DNA of 35,685 nucleotides, taken from a bacterium. Lineage in GTDB: Bacteria > UBP14 > UBA6098 > B30-G16. Below, piece by piece: positions 19,820 to 35,434 of the stretch. How positions within the stretch are numbered: position 1 is the first letter of the stretch; each line of letters starts with the position of its first letter. Made by a program: the position numbers and the translations under genes. The stretch lies in NCBI GenBank assembly GCA_021162205.1, contig JAGGZE010000053.1, positions 1-35,685 of the forward strand, read 5' to 3'. The notes beneath the pieces are model-generated. The model saw only the letters and a program-made list of their open reading frames with translations, did not search any database and was not told where the DNA came from.

Positions 19820-19926
19820 GGGTGGAGCCCTTCGGCTTTTCCTTGAGGGCATATTCGATACGCCCCTACATCGTGTTTTTTAATTTGTTAAATGTTATTT
19901 GGATTAATCTGGTGCAACAGGGAATT
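19820..19926 (+). repeat. 107-bp direct repeat, copy A
   Basis: This matches 20079-20185 at 106 of 107 positions, with an offset of 259 bases. It contains an interrupted palindrome (GGGCATAT tcg ATACGCCC, with one mismatch in this copy), then an AT-rich spacer. It ends inside the left part of compound hairpin E1. Short translations across it are low-quality and identical in both copies, so they are not genes. Confidence 0.9.
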
Positions 19927-19976: not shown

Positions 19977-20013
19977 CGCCGAGAAATTTTGATATGGTTA
20001 TTTGACTAATCAG

Positions 20014-20094
20014 GCGTTGCAATGAATTCCCCGATTTTTAATCGGGGAAGAAACGCAACGCGAAGAAAACACCCGAAGGGGTGGAGCCCTTCGG
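20014..20094 (+). repeat. Compound hairpin element E2
   Basis: The outer stem is GCGTTGC (20014-20020) with GCAACGC (20055-20061). The inner hairpin is CCCCGATTtttAATCGGGG (20029-20047), followed by the linker AAGAAA. The third hairpin is CCGAAGGG (20073-20080) with CCCTTCGG (20087-20094), which runs into copy B of the 107-bp repeat. Confidence 0.75.
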
Positions 20095-20185
20095 CTTTTC
20101 CTTGAGGGCGTATTCGATACGCCCCTACATCGTGTTTTTTAATTTGTTAAATGTTATTTGGATTAATCTGGTGCAACAGGGAATT
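20079..20185 (+). repeat. 107-bp direct repeat, copy B
   Basis: This is the second copy of the repeat at 19820-19926. Here the palindrome is perfect: GGGCGTAT (20106-20113), loop TCG, ATACGCCC (20117-20124). The single difference between the copies lies in this stem. The high identity implies a recent duplication or ongoing conversion. Confidence 0.9.
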
Positions 20186-21621: not shown

Positions 21622-23331
21622 TCATACGAACACATCGATGAATTGGAATTTTGCCGAATCGACAAGACCTTTATCGGTGAGTCTCAATGCTGGAATCGGC
21701 ACGAGCGATAAAAAACTCATTGCAGCGAATGGGTCCGGTAGATTGCAGCCGATATTTTTTGCGGTATCTATTAAGTTCTCGACTTTATCCTTGACGATTT
21801 CCAATGGCTGGTCGCTGACAAGTCCCGCAACTGGAAGTGGAAGTTCGGATAGCACTTTGCCATTCGATACGATTACAAGTCCGCCGCCGAGTTCGATAAC
21901 ACGGATAGCAGCGATTAGCATATCGTTATCGTTCGTCCCGAGAACGCCGAGATTATGGCTATCGTGAGCTACCGACGATGCGAATGCTCCATTATTTATA
22001 CCGAACCCGCGCACAAATCCCTTACCGATATTGCCAGATGCTCGATGTCGTTCGATTACAACGAATTTTGCGATGTCGCGTTCAGAATCGGCAACCGCAT
22101 AACCATTTTCAATTTTAGCATCATCGATAGTATTTTTTGTGACAATTTGTCCGGGAACGACTTCGATAATTCTAATTCGTTTGGCTTTCGCAGGAATTTT
22201 GAACGATTCATCGTCGAGTTTAGCGACATTCATAGTGCCTCGGATATGTATATGCTGCGTTTCAGATGGTTTGAATAACGATTTGCCATCTTTTGCAACC
22301 AGCGCACCTTTTTTGAATACCATCCGCGGTCTCGGATTTAAAATATCGTCGAACACAATAAAGTCTGCCCAATAGCGCGGGATAATCGCACCGATATTTT
22401 TGAGATTGTAAAATCTGGCAGTGTTTATTGTCGCAATTTGGAAAGCTGTTATAGGTTCGAGTCCATTTTGAATCGCAATTCGAAGATTATTATCGATATG
22501 TCCTTCGGACACAAGCGATGCTGGATGTCGGTCGTCGGTTACGAAACTGAAATTATTCCAATTCGTCTCGCTTACTAATGGCAGCAAATCCCGCATATTT
22601 TTTTCCGATGAACCCTCTCGCAAATGTATATGAAGACCGAGTCTCAATTTTTCGCGAGCCTCGTCGACAGTAGTGCATTCGTGGTCGGAGCGAGGACCAG
22701 CGAGTATGTATGCATTCAGGGCTTTTCCGCTAAGTCCAGGTGCGTGACCATCGACCACTTTATCTCTGCCTATGTGCAATTTATTCAAAACCTCACGGTC
22801 GCCAGAAATCACTCCCGGATAGTTCATCATCTCGCCGACACCGACAACGCTCGGTTCATTGATTAACAGATGTATATCGTAAGCCGAAAGTCTCGCTCCA
22901 CTGGATTCCAATTCGGTTGCAGGCACACAGGATGGCAGCATAACGAAAATGTCTAATGGAAGATTTTCACGATGTTCGAGAACATATCGAATGCCATCGA
23001 GTCCCAGCACATTTGCGAATTCGTGCGGGTCTGCGACGACGGCACCTGTTCCCAGCGGAACTACCGCTCGAGTGAATTCTGGCACGGTCAACATCGAGCT
23101 TTCGATATGAATATGTCCATCGATAAGACTCGGTGCGAGATATGCTCCATCGATGTCGATTATTTCTTTTGCATCATAATCGCCGAATCCGACAATCCTG
23201 CCATCGACAATAGCAACATTTGCAGGATGGATTTCACCCGATATCACATTTACCAATCGAGCATTCTTAATCAACAAATCGGCGGGTTTTTTGCCCAAAG
23301 CCCTGAATATTTTATCTTCTACATTTCTCAT
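21622..23331 (-). CDS. ade: Adenine deaminase
   Basis: This 569-residue amidohydrolase converts adenine to hypoxanthine and ammonia in purine salvage. Metal-site and signature motifs: DGHIHIESS near residue 72, DPHEFANVLG near 102, GEMMNYPGVI near 166, DGHAPGLSG near 194, HIHLREGSS near 232 and FVTDDRHP near 262. The Ade-specific C-terminal domain has NLGVLGTNDNDM, GGGLVIV, LPLPVAGL and DPFAAMSFLSL, so the gene is full length. The ATG at 23331 is preceded by AGGTGGGG; a GTG nine bases upstream would sit inside that site. Element E4 abuts the start, and its third hairpin includes the ribosome-binding site. Confidence 0.94.
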   Translation of the reverse strand: MRNVEDKIFRALGKKPADLLIKNARLVNVISGEIHPANVAIVDGRIVGFGDYDAKEIIDIDGAYLAPSLIDGHIHIESSMLTVPEFTRAVVPLGTGAVVADPHEFANVLGLDGIRYVLEHRENLPLDIFVMLPSCVPATELESSGARLSAYDIHLLINEPSVVGVGEMMNYPGVISGDREVLNKLHIGRDKVVDGHAPGLSGKALNAYILAGPRSDHECTTVDEAREKLRLGLHIHLREGSSEKNMRDLLPLVSETNWNNFSFVTDDRHPASLVSEGHIDNNLRIAIQNGLEPITAFQIATINTARFYNLKNIGAIIPRYWADFIVFDDILNPRPRMVFKKGALVAKDGKSLFKPSETQHIHIRGTMNVAKLDDESFKIPAKAKRIRIIEVVPGQIVTKNTIDDAKIENGYAVADSERDIAKFVVIERHRASGNIGKGFVRGFGINNGAFASSVAHDSHNLGVLGTNDNDMLIAAIRVIELGGGLVIVSNGKVLSELPLPVAGLVSDQPLEIVKDKVENLIDTAKNIGCNLPDPFAAMSFLSLVPIPALRLTDKGLVDSAKFQFIDVFV

Positions 23332-23337
23332 TTTCCC

Positions 23338-23407
23338 CACCTTTTAGGTGTTTTTTGTGCGTTGCGTTTTTCTTAATCCCGATAAGTCGGGACATTCCCT
23401 GCAACGC
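23338..23407 (-). repeat. Compound hairpin element E4 (leader of ade)
   Basis: In the ade sense the outer stem is GCGTTGC (23407-23401) with GCAACGC (23365-23359). The linker is AGGGAAT. The inner hairpin TCCCGActtaTCGGGA (23392-23377) is followed by ATTAAGAAA. After ACAAAAAA the third hairpin is CACCTaaaAGGTG (23350-23338). The right arm of that hairpin is the start of AGGTGGGG, the ade ribosome-binding site. Confidence 0.75.
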
Positions 23408-23428
23408 CCGATTAATCAAATAACTTTT

Positions 23429-23464
23429 AACCATTATATATAACAGAATGGTTTTCTCAAAACC
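23429..23464. other. AT-rich hairpins between E4 and the ade-leader-like copy
   Basis: AACCATT near 23429 pairs with AATGGTT near 23446-23452. The latter overlaps a second hairpin, GGTTTTctcAAAACC (23451-23464). They are mutually exclusive. No gene is visible here. Confidence 0.35.
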
Positions 23465-23493
23465 CTTTTTCAGAAAAGTTTGAATATTTTCCC

Positions 23494-23534
23494 CACCTTT
23501 AAGGTGTCTCTTCGCTGGCGTTTGCCTGTTTTTA
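23494..23534 (-). repeat. Partial element E7: copy of the ade-leader hairpin
   Basis: In the minus sense this has AAAAACAGGC, GCCAG and then CACCTTAAAGGTG followed by GGGGAAAAT. It closely repeats the third hairpin and ribosome-binding site of ade, but continues ATTC instead of a start codon plus gene. The nested stems seen in E1-E5 are absent. It looks like a duplicated or truncated leader. Confidence 0.5.
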
Positions 23535-23623
23535 TTGCGAAATGTTGTCAAAGAGCAGGTTGTCGCCACAGTATAGGGTATTCCCTATCCTAATATTTCC
23601 ACACGGAGCGGAAGGAAAGATGA

Positions 23624-24871
23624 TTAATCGGTTTCAATTATGAGAGACTTCGGTTTATCATCTTTTCTACGTAGTCTACCGCTTACTGTTATTATTTTGT
23701 TTTTATCCAAACTACGTGTGTATTTCGACTCTTCTATAGGTTCATCAGTTTCAATTTTAATCGACACTTTCGGCGTTCTATTCTCTTCAATTATATATGC
23801 CTTGCCTTTTCCAGTTTCCGTATTTAACTGATAAATATGGATTCGGTATTCCGTTAAACTATCATCTACGGTATAGATTTCACTCTGAATAATCTCTTTG
23901 GTTTTTTCAAACCGGTCATAATCTTTTCTTTCTATTTTAGTAATCGGTGAAATACCCGAAAATTCTATTGAATTATAAGAACAACCTATGTCTTTTGTCA
24001 TATCAGATAATATTTCTTGAGTATCGATTATTTTATCAAGAAATAATTCTTCATAGTCCTCGGGAACAAGAAAATGGTATTCTCTTATTAGTTGTTTATA
24101 TTCTTGAATTATATTCTGTGCTTCTTCGGGTATTTCCTTCTTTATTATAATATCTATAGAATCAGGGAGTTTGGAAATACAATAGCTTAAATACTTATCT
24201 AATAGGATAGATATTTTATTTTCTAAATCTTTATTATAGTCTATAAGGAAACCAGTGCTATCACCGGGATATACGAGTTCAGTATTTAAAACTATTTCGA
24301 AACTCGCCGGATTCGTTGCTTGTATATAAGTTTTCCCATTTAATCCCATAGATTTAATTAAACTAATGCCGTTTTCTACAAAAGCCTCAGTCTTATTAGC
24401 TATATTGCTAAAAATGCTCGTTAAAACACGATGTTTTGCCGCTTCGAAACCTTCTAAGTGAACTCTATGTGTAAGATTCGGATATAATTGGCATGAATAA
24501 CTTGGACAGAACGAATTTTCTGTAGGTAGATAATCTTTAGGTATATCTTCGAAATCAATCGGGAAAGCTTTCATGTAAGAATTATCGAAAGCTTTTTCCA
24601 AAATAAAGAGGTCCGATGTTTTCTTCATTATTTCCAGATAGGATAACTCCCGCTTGAAAAACTTGGACAATAAATCGAAATAGACTACCGCATGGAAATG
24701 CCAGTCAATTTTTTTATCGTAGTCTTCATCGATGGATGAACCAAGTATCCAATTCCCGAAACTATTTTTTCCGCAATATAAAATCGGCTCGTCGTCGAAT
24801 AATATATCTTTATATTCGCAAGTTATTATCGGATAACTAACTGCTTTAGTTGTGCGATTGAATTCGAACAT
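23624..24871 (-). CDS. Unknown protein (DUF6575-like N-terminus), second gene of a cassette
   Basis: This 415-residue cytosolic-looking protein has no signal peptide or membrane segment. The first 100 residues (YKDILFDDEPILYCGKNSFGNWIL, split as DDEPILYCGK and SFGNWIL) recall the DUF6575 pattern, in which a 'display/price' strand of the type DGPLLF-x-N-x-G precedes a helix-rich stretch; this is from memory and uncertain. The middle is helical and acidic; the C-terminal 80 residues form a strand-rich Lys/Glu domain (TVSGRLRRKDD). Its ATG overlaps the stop of the upstream gene (TAATG). Base use is more AT-rich and less CGAT-biased than in neighbours, pointing to acquired DNA. No function can be assigned. 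Confidence 0.6.
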   Translation of the reverse strand: MFEFNRTTKAVSYPIITCEYKDILFDDEPILYCGKNSFGNWILGSSIDEDYDKKIDWHFHAVVYFDLLSKFFKRELSYLEIMKKTSDLFILEKAFDNSYMKAFPIDFEDIPKDYLPTENSFCPSYSCQLYPNLTHRVHLEGFEAAKHRVLTSIFSNIANKTEAFVENGISLIKSMGLNGKTYIQATNPASFEIVLNTELVYPGDSTGFLIDYNKDLENKISILLDKYLSYCISKLPDSIDIIIKKEIPEEAQNIIQEYKQLIREYHFLVPEDYEELFLDKIIDTQEILSDMTKDIGCSYNSIEFSGISPITKIERKDYDRFEKTKEIIQSEIYTVDDSLTEYRIHIYQLNTETGKGKAYIIEENRTPKVSIKIETDEPIEESKYTRSLDKNKIITVSGRLRRKDDKPKSLIIETD

Positions 24872-25311
24872 TATGTGAATACCTCTATGTTAATAAGGTT
24901 TATTTTTTCTAAACTAAAACCATCTGATTTAAATAAACTGCAATGATAAGGCGGTCTATTTTGCCCTTTTTTGACAACCCCTGCGTCTTTTATTAACTTG
25001 AAAGTGCAATATTTTTTCGGCAATCTTTCTCCCGCACGAATTCTCTTTATCTCATTCGCTGTTGAAAACTTCTCCTTATAATAATCAGTTATATCTTCAT
25101 GATTTCTATTTATAGAAATACTTCTCCATTCGCATTCTTTATTGTCTTTTATAGGTCGTCTAGGCATTCCTCGTTCCCAATGCGATTGGAAATCGTATTC
25201 TTTAACTTCTTGGCCAGCAAGCTTCCTTGTAAAAATAGTGCTCGTATCTTCTTTGCAATCATCGGTTATGCAATTATAATTAAGATCTCTGTGTAACTCG
25301 TCAAACGTCAT
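24871..25311 (-). CDS. Unknown small protein, first gene of a cassette
   Basis: This 146-residue, highly charged, soluble protein opens MTFDELHRDLNYNCITDDCKED. Features that look conserved in type are DFQSHWERGMPRRP near 42, RLPKKYCTFKLIKDAGVVKKG near 95-115 (split here as RLPKKYCTFK and LIKDAGVV), and a C-terminal YHCSLFKSDGFSLEKINL. Three or four Cys and His residues could bind metal, but no classical motif is formed. GGAGGAG lies upstream of the ATG, and a promoter lies at 25390-25418. Its TAA overlaps the next gene's ATG, so the two are made together. Toxin-antitoxin or defence roles are possible but unsupported. Confidence 0.6.
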   Translation of the reverse strand: MTFDELHRDLNYNCITDDCKEDTSTIFTRKLAGQEVKEYDFQSHWERGMPRRPIKDNKECEWRSISINRNHEDITDYYKEKFSTANEIKRIRAGERLPKKYCTFKLIKDAGVVKKGQNRPPYHCSLFKSDGFSLEKINLINIEVFT

Positions 25312-25445: not shown

Positions 25446-25575
25446 TTTGAACCGGTGATACCTATGATGAAATGATTTCGCATGATGGGGTGTTCAGATG
25501 GGATACACCTTGTAGGTGTAGCCAATCATAAAGTGTAGTCCATCTCAAAGAAGGGCTACACTTGCCGGTTCAGAA
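25446..25575. other. Structured intergenic element with alternative stems
   Basis: TGAACCGG (25448-25455) pairs with CCGGTTCA (25565-25572) and encloses several stems. TACACCttgtaGGTGTA spans 25504-25520. AGATGG (25496-25501) can pair with CCATCT (25540-25545). Competing with these, AAGTGTAG (25531-25538) pairs with CTACACTT (25556-25563), and GTGTAGCC (25516-25523) pairs with GGCTACAC (25554-25561). It could be a structured leader of the cassette, a 3' structure of the PmbA-like gene or a mobile palindromic element. No known RNA family is recognised. The rest of 25312-25614 shows no gene. Confidence 0.4.
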
Positions 25576-25614: not shown

Positions 25615-26973
25615 TTATCCACCGAATTCGGTAGCGCTGGAGAAATTGAATTTTTCCACAAGCATAGCGGGAGTGTAGGCGCCGCCGAAGAAAAATCCCG
25701 ATACAAGTTTCTGTTTTTTGCCGATTGCGATGATATTATTGAAAGTATCGAGTGTGCTTTGAGTAAATCGCAAATTCTTCACAGGATATGCGATTTCGCC
25801 ATTCTCGATTGCGAAAAGACCATCTCGAGTCATTCCAGTAATTGTGAGTTTAGTTAGCTCAGAAACATTAGTATAGTGAAAATGAGTTACCAAAAGCCCA
25901 TTTTTAACCGATTTTACCATATCTTTTAGCGATGTCTCGCCGGGTTCGATGACGACATTAAGAGGAATAGCTCCCCATCGGTTCGGTTGCGGCAAACCGT
26001 GTCCTGTCGGCTCGATATTCATTTTTTGAGCTGTCCAGCGGTCGGCTACGAGATTTGTCAAAATACCATTTTTTACGAGTTCGACTTTTCGACGGGGAAC
26101 ACCCTCGAAATCGAATGGAATACCCGACAAATTCTCATTATAAGCGTCGTCTACGATTGTAAGCTTGTCGTCGAATACTTTTTGCCCGAGCTTCCCCGTT
26201 AGCAAACTTTGTCCCTCGAGATGCATTCTCGCATTAAAACCGTATATCGACATAAATGAAATAAAATCGGCGACAGCAGCGGGAGTCAGAACGACAGTAT
26301 ATTGCCCCGATTTAATATCCCGTGGATTTTGATTTCTTTTAGCGATATCGATTGCATCGGCAATATCGGATTGTGGATTTGTTTTACCTATCGACCAGTT
26401 AATCGATTCAGCCCATCCAGTCCCTGTTTTTCCTTCGACAGTCAAACTGAATTCAAAATTTGTGCCATCCCAATATGCGAATAATCCATTAGAATTTGCA
26501 AGACCGAGCGCCGATGTCGAATTTTCAACGATACCAGCCGAACTAAGGTTTTCCTTTTCGCATGCTGAAACCACATTGGAAACTATATTCACTCGTTTCT
26601 CGGGACTAATTTCTGATGTTTCGGTGCAAAATCGCGCGATTTCATCATATTTTTGCATTCCAAGCATAGGTAATATCTCATCGTTATCACTCGAATGCTC
26701 GACTATCTCACGGGCTTTTTGCACAGCTTTGGCGATTGTTCCATCATCGGAGAATAGATTGATAGCGACTTTGCCATCTTTTTTCCCTCGTTGAAGTCTA
26801 ATCGATAGCGCACCATTGCTGACAACGACATTTTGATGAATCACATTATTTGCAAATCGTGTCAAAGCAGAATCCGAAAAATTCAAACTTACCTCGGCAT
26901 CGAATCCATCTAAAAGCGAAAATACTTTATCCGATATTCGCTTAAAATTATTTTGAACTTGTTCCCTGTTCAT
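25615..26973 (-). CDS. PmbA/TldE-like metalloprotease-family protein
   Basis: This 452-residue protein belongs to the TldD/PmbA family, whose E. coli members form a TldD-TldE heterodimer that degrades or matures small peptides such as microcin B17 and CcdA. It shows the N-terminal family domain (AEVSLNFSDSALTRFANNVIHQ), the region VVLTPAAVADFISFM, RRKVELVKNGILTNLVADRWTA, and the C-terminal VTHFHYTNVSELTKLTITGMTRDG. I see no HExxxH, so this is the TldE/PmbA-like non-catalytic type. A tldD partner is not in this window. It is probably cotranscribed after the acyl-CoA ligase (14-base gap). Confidence 0.88.
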   Translation of the reverse strand: MNREQVQNNFKRISDKVFSLLDGFDAEVSLNFSDSALTRFANNVIHQNVVVSNGALSIRLQRGKKDGKVAINLFSDDGTIAKAVQKAREIVEHSSDNDEILPMLGMQKYDEIARFCTETSEISPEKRVNIVSNVVSACEKENLSSAGIVENSTSALGLANSNGLFAYWDGTNFEFSLTVEGKTGTGWAESINWSIGKTNPQSDIADAIDIAKRNQNPRDIKSGQYTVVLTPAAVADFISFMSIYGFNARMHLEGQSLLTGKLGQKVFDDKLTIVDDAYNENLSGIPFDFEGVPRRKVELVKNGILTNLVADRWTAQKMNIEPTGHGLPQPNRWGAIPLNVVIEPGETSLKDMVKSVKNGLLVTHFHYTNVSELTKLTITGMTRDGLFAIENGEIAYPVKNLRFTQSTLDTFNNIIAIGKKQKLVSGFFFGGAYTPAMLVEKFNFSSATEFGG

Positions 26974-35263: not shown

Positions 35264-35283
35264 CAGGCATTCGCCTGTTTTTT
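35264..35283 (+). terminator. Rho-independent terminator of tRNA-Ser, part of element E5
   Basis: CAGGCattcGCCTG (35264-35277) is followed at once by six T. It begins on the base after the tRNA discriminator. The same hairpin is the third hairpin of compound element E5, so a repeat supplies the terminator. Confidence 0.75.
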
Positions 35284-35327
35284 GTGCGTTGTTTTCCTCC
35301 CGACAATGTCGGGATTCCCTGCAACGC
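35264..35327 (-). repeat. Compound hairpin element E5
   Basis: In minus sense the outer stem is GCGTTG (35327-35322) with CAACGC (35291-35286). The linker is AGGGAAT, and the inner hairpin is TCCCGACattGTCGGGA (35314-35298), followed by GGAAAA. ACAAAAAA leads to the third hairpin CAGGCgaatGCCTG (35277-35264). Confidence 0.75.
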
Positions 35328-35359
35328 CAGATTAATAAGTATTTCAACTAATTAAAGAG

Positions 35360-35434
35360 CCGAAGACTCCTCTTCGGGTATCTTCTTTGTATTGTGTCTT
35401 TCTTAATCCCAATGAGTCGAAATCGGGAGACAAT
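35360..35434 (-). repeat. Divergent compound hairpin element E6
   Basis: In minus sense the outer stem is AGACAAT/ATTGT-TCT type (35430-35434 with 35391-35395, one bulge). A weak inner TCCC/GGGA pairing and the shared linker ATTAAGAAAG follow, then ACAAAGAAGATA and a strong third hairpin CCGAAGAggagTCTTCGG (35377-35360). It keeps the E-element order with new stem sequences. Confidence 0.5.

Follow-up and report, generated by a model that had tools for sequence, protein, structure and literature searches.

A dispersed, structured repeat that lies directly against the start codon of the adenine deaminase gene ade most probably supplies the ribosome-binding site of that gene through the AGGTG arm of its terminal hairpin. 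Its effect on ade would be constitutive and modest, and elsewhere in the genome the repeat's terminal hairpin, read on the opposite strand, probably terminates the genes that end at it. The gene, its leader and the other repeat units occupy the following positions in the window, that is, the whole stretch of 35,685 nt that was analysed:

21622-23331, minus strand: ade, adenine deaminase gene (TIGR01178, 615 bits)
23329-23331, minus strand: ATG start codon of ade, 6 nt after AGGTG and conserved in relatives
23338-23350, minus strand: 3′ terminal hairpin of the repeat unit, CACCT-AAA-AGGTG, with the right arm AGGTG (23342-23338) as the Shine-Dalgarno (SD) sequence
23351-23358, minus strand: linker ACAAAAAA of the unit; the plus-strand reading gives T6 after the hairpin, which is terminator-like
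23359-23407, minus strand: unit core, with outer stem GCGTTGC (23407-23401)/GCAACGC (23365-23359) around the inner hairpin CCCGA-CTTA-TCGGG (about 23391-23378)
23429-23460, minus strand: AT-rich inverted module TTGAGAAAACCATTCTGTTATATATAATGGTT, with about eight further occurrences near units in the sampled DNA
23486-23512, minus strand: duplicate of the terminal hairpin that also carries the GGGGAAAAT tail; over 27 nt the two are 89% identical, and no start codon comes after this one
20001-20083, plus strand: unit of the same family ending in CACCCGAAGGGGTG
35276-35336, minus strand: unit of the same family, then a CAGGCGAATGCCTG hairpin
35392-35419, minus strand: diverged, partial unit core

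On the minus strand, the region ahead of ade reads CACCT (23350-23346), AAA, AGGTG (23342-23338), GGGAAA and ATG (23331). This start codon is backed by the N-terminus MR-x-[MVI]-x-DK, common to five related ade proteins, and AGGTG is both the best SD match near it and the only good one in range. Because the 16S 3′ end GGATCACCTCCTTT is found in the source genome, AGGTG can pair with the anti-SD, and we infer that it is the functional SD of ade. The first-pass annotation had described a hairpin overlapping this site, and the hairpin is real: CACCTaaaAGGTG on the minus strand (23350-23338) includes AGGTG, and CACCTNNNAGGTG forms an exact inverted repeat at 23338-23350, for which the chance expectation in the window is 0. 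The left arm CACCT does equal the anti-SD core, as the annotation had also pointed out; this follows trivially from a right arm that is SD-like.

The isolated hairpin is weak (-3.8 kcal/mol, RNAfold) and local folding predicts it as well. With 130 nt of context, none of the five AGGUG bases has an unpaired probability above 0.22 (RNAfold), and these bases are mostly paired, with low accessibility, in every ade fold and context tested. The second palindrome copy, at 23494-23506, is predicted to be able to pair with the ade hairpin and likewise hide AGGTG, which could add to its sequestration. The gap that separates ORF 24871-25311 from ORF 25615-26973 holds a third such palindrome, CACCTTGTAGGTG, at 25506-25518. 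In MS2, expression remained at 80-100% when the coat SD was covered by hairpins of -6.6 to -7.9 kcal/mol (table in PMC9894550), so a stem of -3.8 kcal/mol is expected to affect translation little. The MS2 comparison involves a different SD; the AGGUG site of ade is weaker, so the hairpin could matter more. The AGGUG:anti-SD duplex is calculated at -6.5 kcal/mol for ade versus -9.3 to -9.8 kcal/mol in three of the four relatives tested. Given this weaker duplex and the possible pairing with 23494-23506, ade may have a lower basal translation.

The hairpin is one member of a large family. Searched with the leader, the source genome (a draft of 2.57 Mb in 185 contigs) yielded 47 unit copies at E≤0.001; these span the core and in many cases the terminal hairpin as well. 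The terminal-hairpin pattern AACACCYNAAN{0,1}RGGTG has 240 exact matches in this genome versus 0 for the reversed pattern used as control, and 60 other genomes hold 0-2 matches each, as scattered singles. By DNA similarity the unit is absent from 20 other genomes, seven of them of the same family. The first-pass annotation had taken the upstream part of the leader for a dispersed repeat, which holds, but the genome search and the pattern matches place the hairpin itself in the repeat too. Its tail belongs there as well: the GGGGA behind AGGTG is repeat sequence, exact after five hairpins, and CACCTNNNAGGTGGGGA, the ribosome-binding sequence of ade, occurs exactly five times, with no start codon directly after the other four. 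The family is a lineage-specific, dispersed, multi-hairpin structured repeat.

Position and anatomy statistics refer to 343 kb of sequence chosen around hairpins in the draft genome, with genes and their starts called by a simple codon-score script; AGGTG-type hairpins (50) are complete for the genome and the other arm types are a sample. In these stretches 181 units consist of an outer stem, an inner part that is usually a hairpin, an A-rich linker of 8 nt and a terminal hairpin. Outer stems come as four unrelated pairs (GTGCAAC/GTTGCAC, GCGTTGC/GCAACGC, GCATTGC/GCAATGC and GGCGACA/AGTCGCC) and terminal arms as CACCC/GGGTG, CAGGC/GCCTG, CACCT/AGGTG, GAGCC/GGCTC, GAACC/GGTTC and rarer types, so that whole stems are exchanged among units between constant linkers. 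Complete terminal hairpins are found in 163 of the 217 units with an outer stem, compared with a mean of 56 after arm shuffling. The percentage of paired outer stems is no evidence, because the outer stem served to select units; the evidence for this stem is the variety of pair types together with a shuffle test from an earlier search that used a narrower linker pattern (120 versus 40). Units are clustered and occur in both orientations, in the manner of BIMEs, and only 5 of 310 sampled hairpins are located deeper than 20 nt within a called gene.

Other repeated sequences accompany the units. AT-rich inverted modules of the TTGAGAAAACCATTCGGTTATATATAATGGTT type are linked to units and also appear on contigs C3, C31, C58, C40, C60, C17, C126 and C174. 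The ade copy of this module (23429-23460) happens to include the sigma-70-like TTGAGA-16-TATAAT, an 11/12 match; this site (23460-23433) may be no more than an AT-rich repeat-module arm and was set aside as evidence. A direct repeat of 107 nt, 99% identical, flanks the unit at 20001-20083 on either side (19820-19926 and 20079-20185) and includes TTCGATACGCCCCTACATCGTGTTTT, a module also seen close to other units.

Only the SD-like arm is over-represented before genes. In 11 of 48 cases a hairpin of the AGGTG type has a start codon no more than 25 nt away, whereas 60 null draws averaged 3.8 and never exceeded 7. Other types stand at or below chance: GGGTG in 11 of 118 cases versus 8.4 expected, GCCTG in 4 of 59 versus 3.9, and GGTTC and GGCTC in none (AGGTG type versus other types, Fisher p=0.0009). 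Besides ade, the AGGTG-type hairpin stands ahead of uvrB, a histidine-phosphatase gene, a patatin-like gene and others, which are functionally unrelated. For ade and these three named genes, inspection revealed no other strong SD.

At the ends of genes the association concerns the other strand. Of 310 hairpins, 48 are at an opposite-strand stop codon, versus a mean of 7.8 and a maximum of 18 under random non-coding placement, with peaks at 0 (the stop touches the hairpin, 14 cases) and at -9 (the stop is within the hairpin, 10 cases). At least five A occur in the 6 nt before the hairpin in 228 of the 310, and since the linker carries this A-tract the opposite strand reads a hairpin followed by a T-tract. 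The family as a whole thus combines the hallmarks of intrinsic terminators, namely a G+C-containing hairpin, a T-tract and a stop codon; the ade copy does not, no gene ending there. Judged from these sequence features, the hairpin and T-tract probably terminate transcription of the genes that end at them. In some copies (L183, L184, L185, L188 and L189 among them) the gene's stop is inside the hairpin, as CACCTTTAAGGTG or CAGGCTTAGCCTG on the gene strand, and there the repeat encodes the last residues of the protein as well as its stop.

The ade leader was compared with those of five relatives, four genomes of the same family and the record UBP2_UBA4780, of unconfirmed family. These are other genera with 73-83% protein identity, and the comparison accordingly shows no pre-insertion empty site. 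An AGGTG-type terminal hairpin is missing from all five related leaders, whose pre-ATG sites are of the GGAG type (GGAGGAGAA, GGGAGGAAAAA, GGAGGATTAGGT, GGAGAAGGT and GGAGGGGAAGT), and no unit arm was found in the 300-nt ade leaders of the four relatives scanned. One relative (G004) has another palindrome, GCGCC-GGAAG-GGCGC, about 25-50 nt upstream of ade and clear of the SD (L022).

The reading that fits best is that a repeat element came to lie directly against the ade start codon, where its AGGTG arm, with the GGGGAAAAT-type tail of the element behind it, would serve as ribosome-binding site instead of the GGAG-type site of the relatives. The element would thereby have replaced the ancestral site. 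Its influence on ade would be a constitutive, modest tuning of initiation and not a ligand-controlled switch.

An ade-specific, purine-responsive translational switch had been the earlier interpretation, drawn from the sequestered SD and the nested stems upstream, and it is now scarcely tenable. The comparison of related leaders, named beforehand as the refuting test, went against it: conservation upstream of orthologous genes is expected of a riboswitch, and the hairpin is lacking in five of five relatives. The stems are generic repeat stems, the same hairpin stands before unrelated genes, and the local hairpin is weak. The annotation's own statement that the leader is not a known purine riboswitch is borne out, as Rfam has no cis-regulatory match at gathering score anywhere in the window and its weak matches at 23250-23650 include no purine riboswitch and nothing credible at relaxed thresholds. 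Nothing points to a ligand for the ade leader. A broader form of control, in which the AGGTG hairpin is a shared post-transcriptional on/off element for about a dozen genes, operated for example by an RNA-binding protein, temperature or the upstream palindrome copy, is improbable, if less so. The enrichment of AGGTG-type hairpins before starts, the retention of structure through stem swaps and the mostly paired state of AGGUG in each ade fold would agree with it. Yet retention of SD-compatible arms alone would yield the same enrichment, 37 of the 48 AGGTG hairpins are not ahead of a start, and the downstream genes share no common pathway. Several of the 11 hairpins that do precede a start are followed by an independent GGAG-type site before the ATG; at the enolase-like gene on contig C14, named from its sequence, GGAGG lies between hairpin and start.

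It is also very unlikely that the hairpin is only the terminator-like end of a repeat, with the ade leader starting downstream of it or with no effect on ade. The plus-strand reading of hairpin and T6 and the strong association of the family with stop codons speak for such a role, but no called plus-strand gene ends at the ade hairpin, there is no promoter-like site between the hairpin and the ade ATG, and AGGTG is the sole good SD in range. Supply of the ade ribosome-binding site by the repeat is accordingly retained as the preferred reading. An extension of it, speculative and on balance doubtful, would make the repeat a mobile expression-boundary cassette, with a stop and terminator on one strand and a portable SD-in-hairpin, possibly with its own promoter, on the other. 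If true, spread of the cassette would rewire transcript ends and translation starts across the genome.

An apparent gene-specific riboregulator thus becomes an example of a dispersed repeat taking over the ribosome-binding site of a gene, and cautions that leader structure derived from repeats may be misread as a switch. With its stem swapping, constant linkers and hairpins at stops and starts, the family is a natural set for asking how such elements spread, whether through single-stranded DNA, through RNA, or by selection as useful terminators and ribosome-binding sites.

Among known systems, SD-sequestering hairpins such as that of the MS2 coat gene and riboswitch expression platforms share the SD inside a stem; the ade hairpin differs in that it lacks a ligand domain, its local stem reaches only -3.8 kcal/mol and it is not conserved along with the gene. 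The inverted uptake sequences of Neisseria, mentioned in PMC3049150, also form a dispersed repeat, and their hairpin is a predicted transcription terminator. The present family has no fixed uptake word, because its stem sequences vary among copies.

The family also resembles REP and BIME sequences, which go with RAYT transposases related to IS200/IS605. As described in PMC2817692 and PMC3733652, REP and BIME sequences are extragenic palindromes that number hundreds in a genome, stand alone or form clusters in which the orientation alternates, and keep their pairing through complementary changes; GTAG REPs supply stop codons to flanking ORFs (PMC3733652). The present family is likewise a high-copy extragenic palindromic repeat (240 terminal hairpins in 2.57 Mb) whose units are clustered, conserve pairing and provide stop codons, but each unit comprises three hairpins in about 75-90 nt, and stems are swapped between units. 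No GTAG/CGTC tag was seen at the palindrome foot in units inspected by eye, which have A-rich linkers (ACAAAAAA, AAAGAAAA) or AGGGAAT instead. A RAYT-like ORF (L210:2005-2463, contig C149) matches NF047646 at 61.5 bits (cut-off 80) over the first 89 of 146 profile positions; it is perhaps a decayed REP transposase, and no family hairpin occurs in the 4 kb inspected there. An IS200-like gene on contig C129 has one different hairpin nearby. A link to RAYT or IS200 was rejected, as Y1 genes are present but unflanked by the repeat in the stretches inspected, and such genes also occur in most relatives, where the repeat is missing. As inspection showed no GTAG tag and no RAYT gene flanked by the units was found, the family is termed REP/BIME-like and not REP.

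The BOX, RUP and SPRITE repeats of Streptococcus pneumoniae are also mosaic, structured repeats in operon leaders and tails, with SPRITE terminator-like, a likeness of description. In the excerpts of PMC3049150 consulted, BOX repeats encode the stop codons of 36 genes, BOX-encoded ORFs lacked good SDs and no SD supply is described for BOX. SD supply by the hairpin arm of a repeat was not met with in the limited, partly consulted literature searched. Stop-codon supply by extragenic palindromes is already known, from GTAG REPs (PMC3733652) and BOX (PMC3049150), and the present family resembles BIME/REP and BOX repeats.
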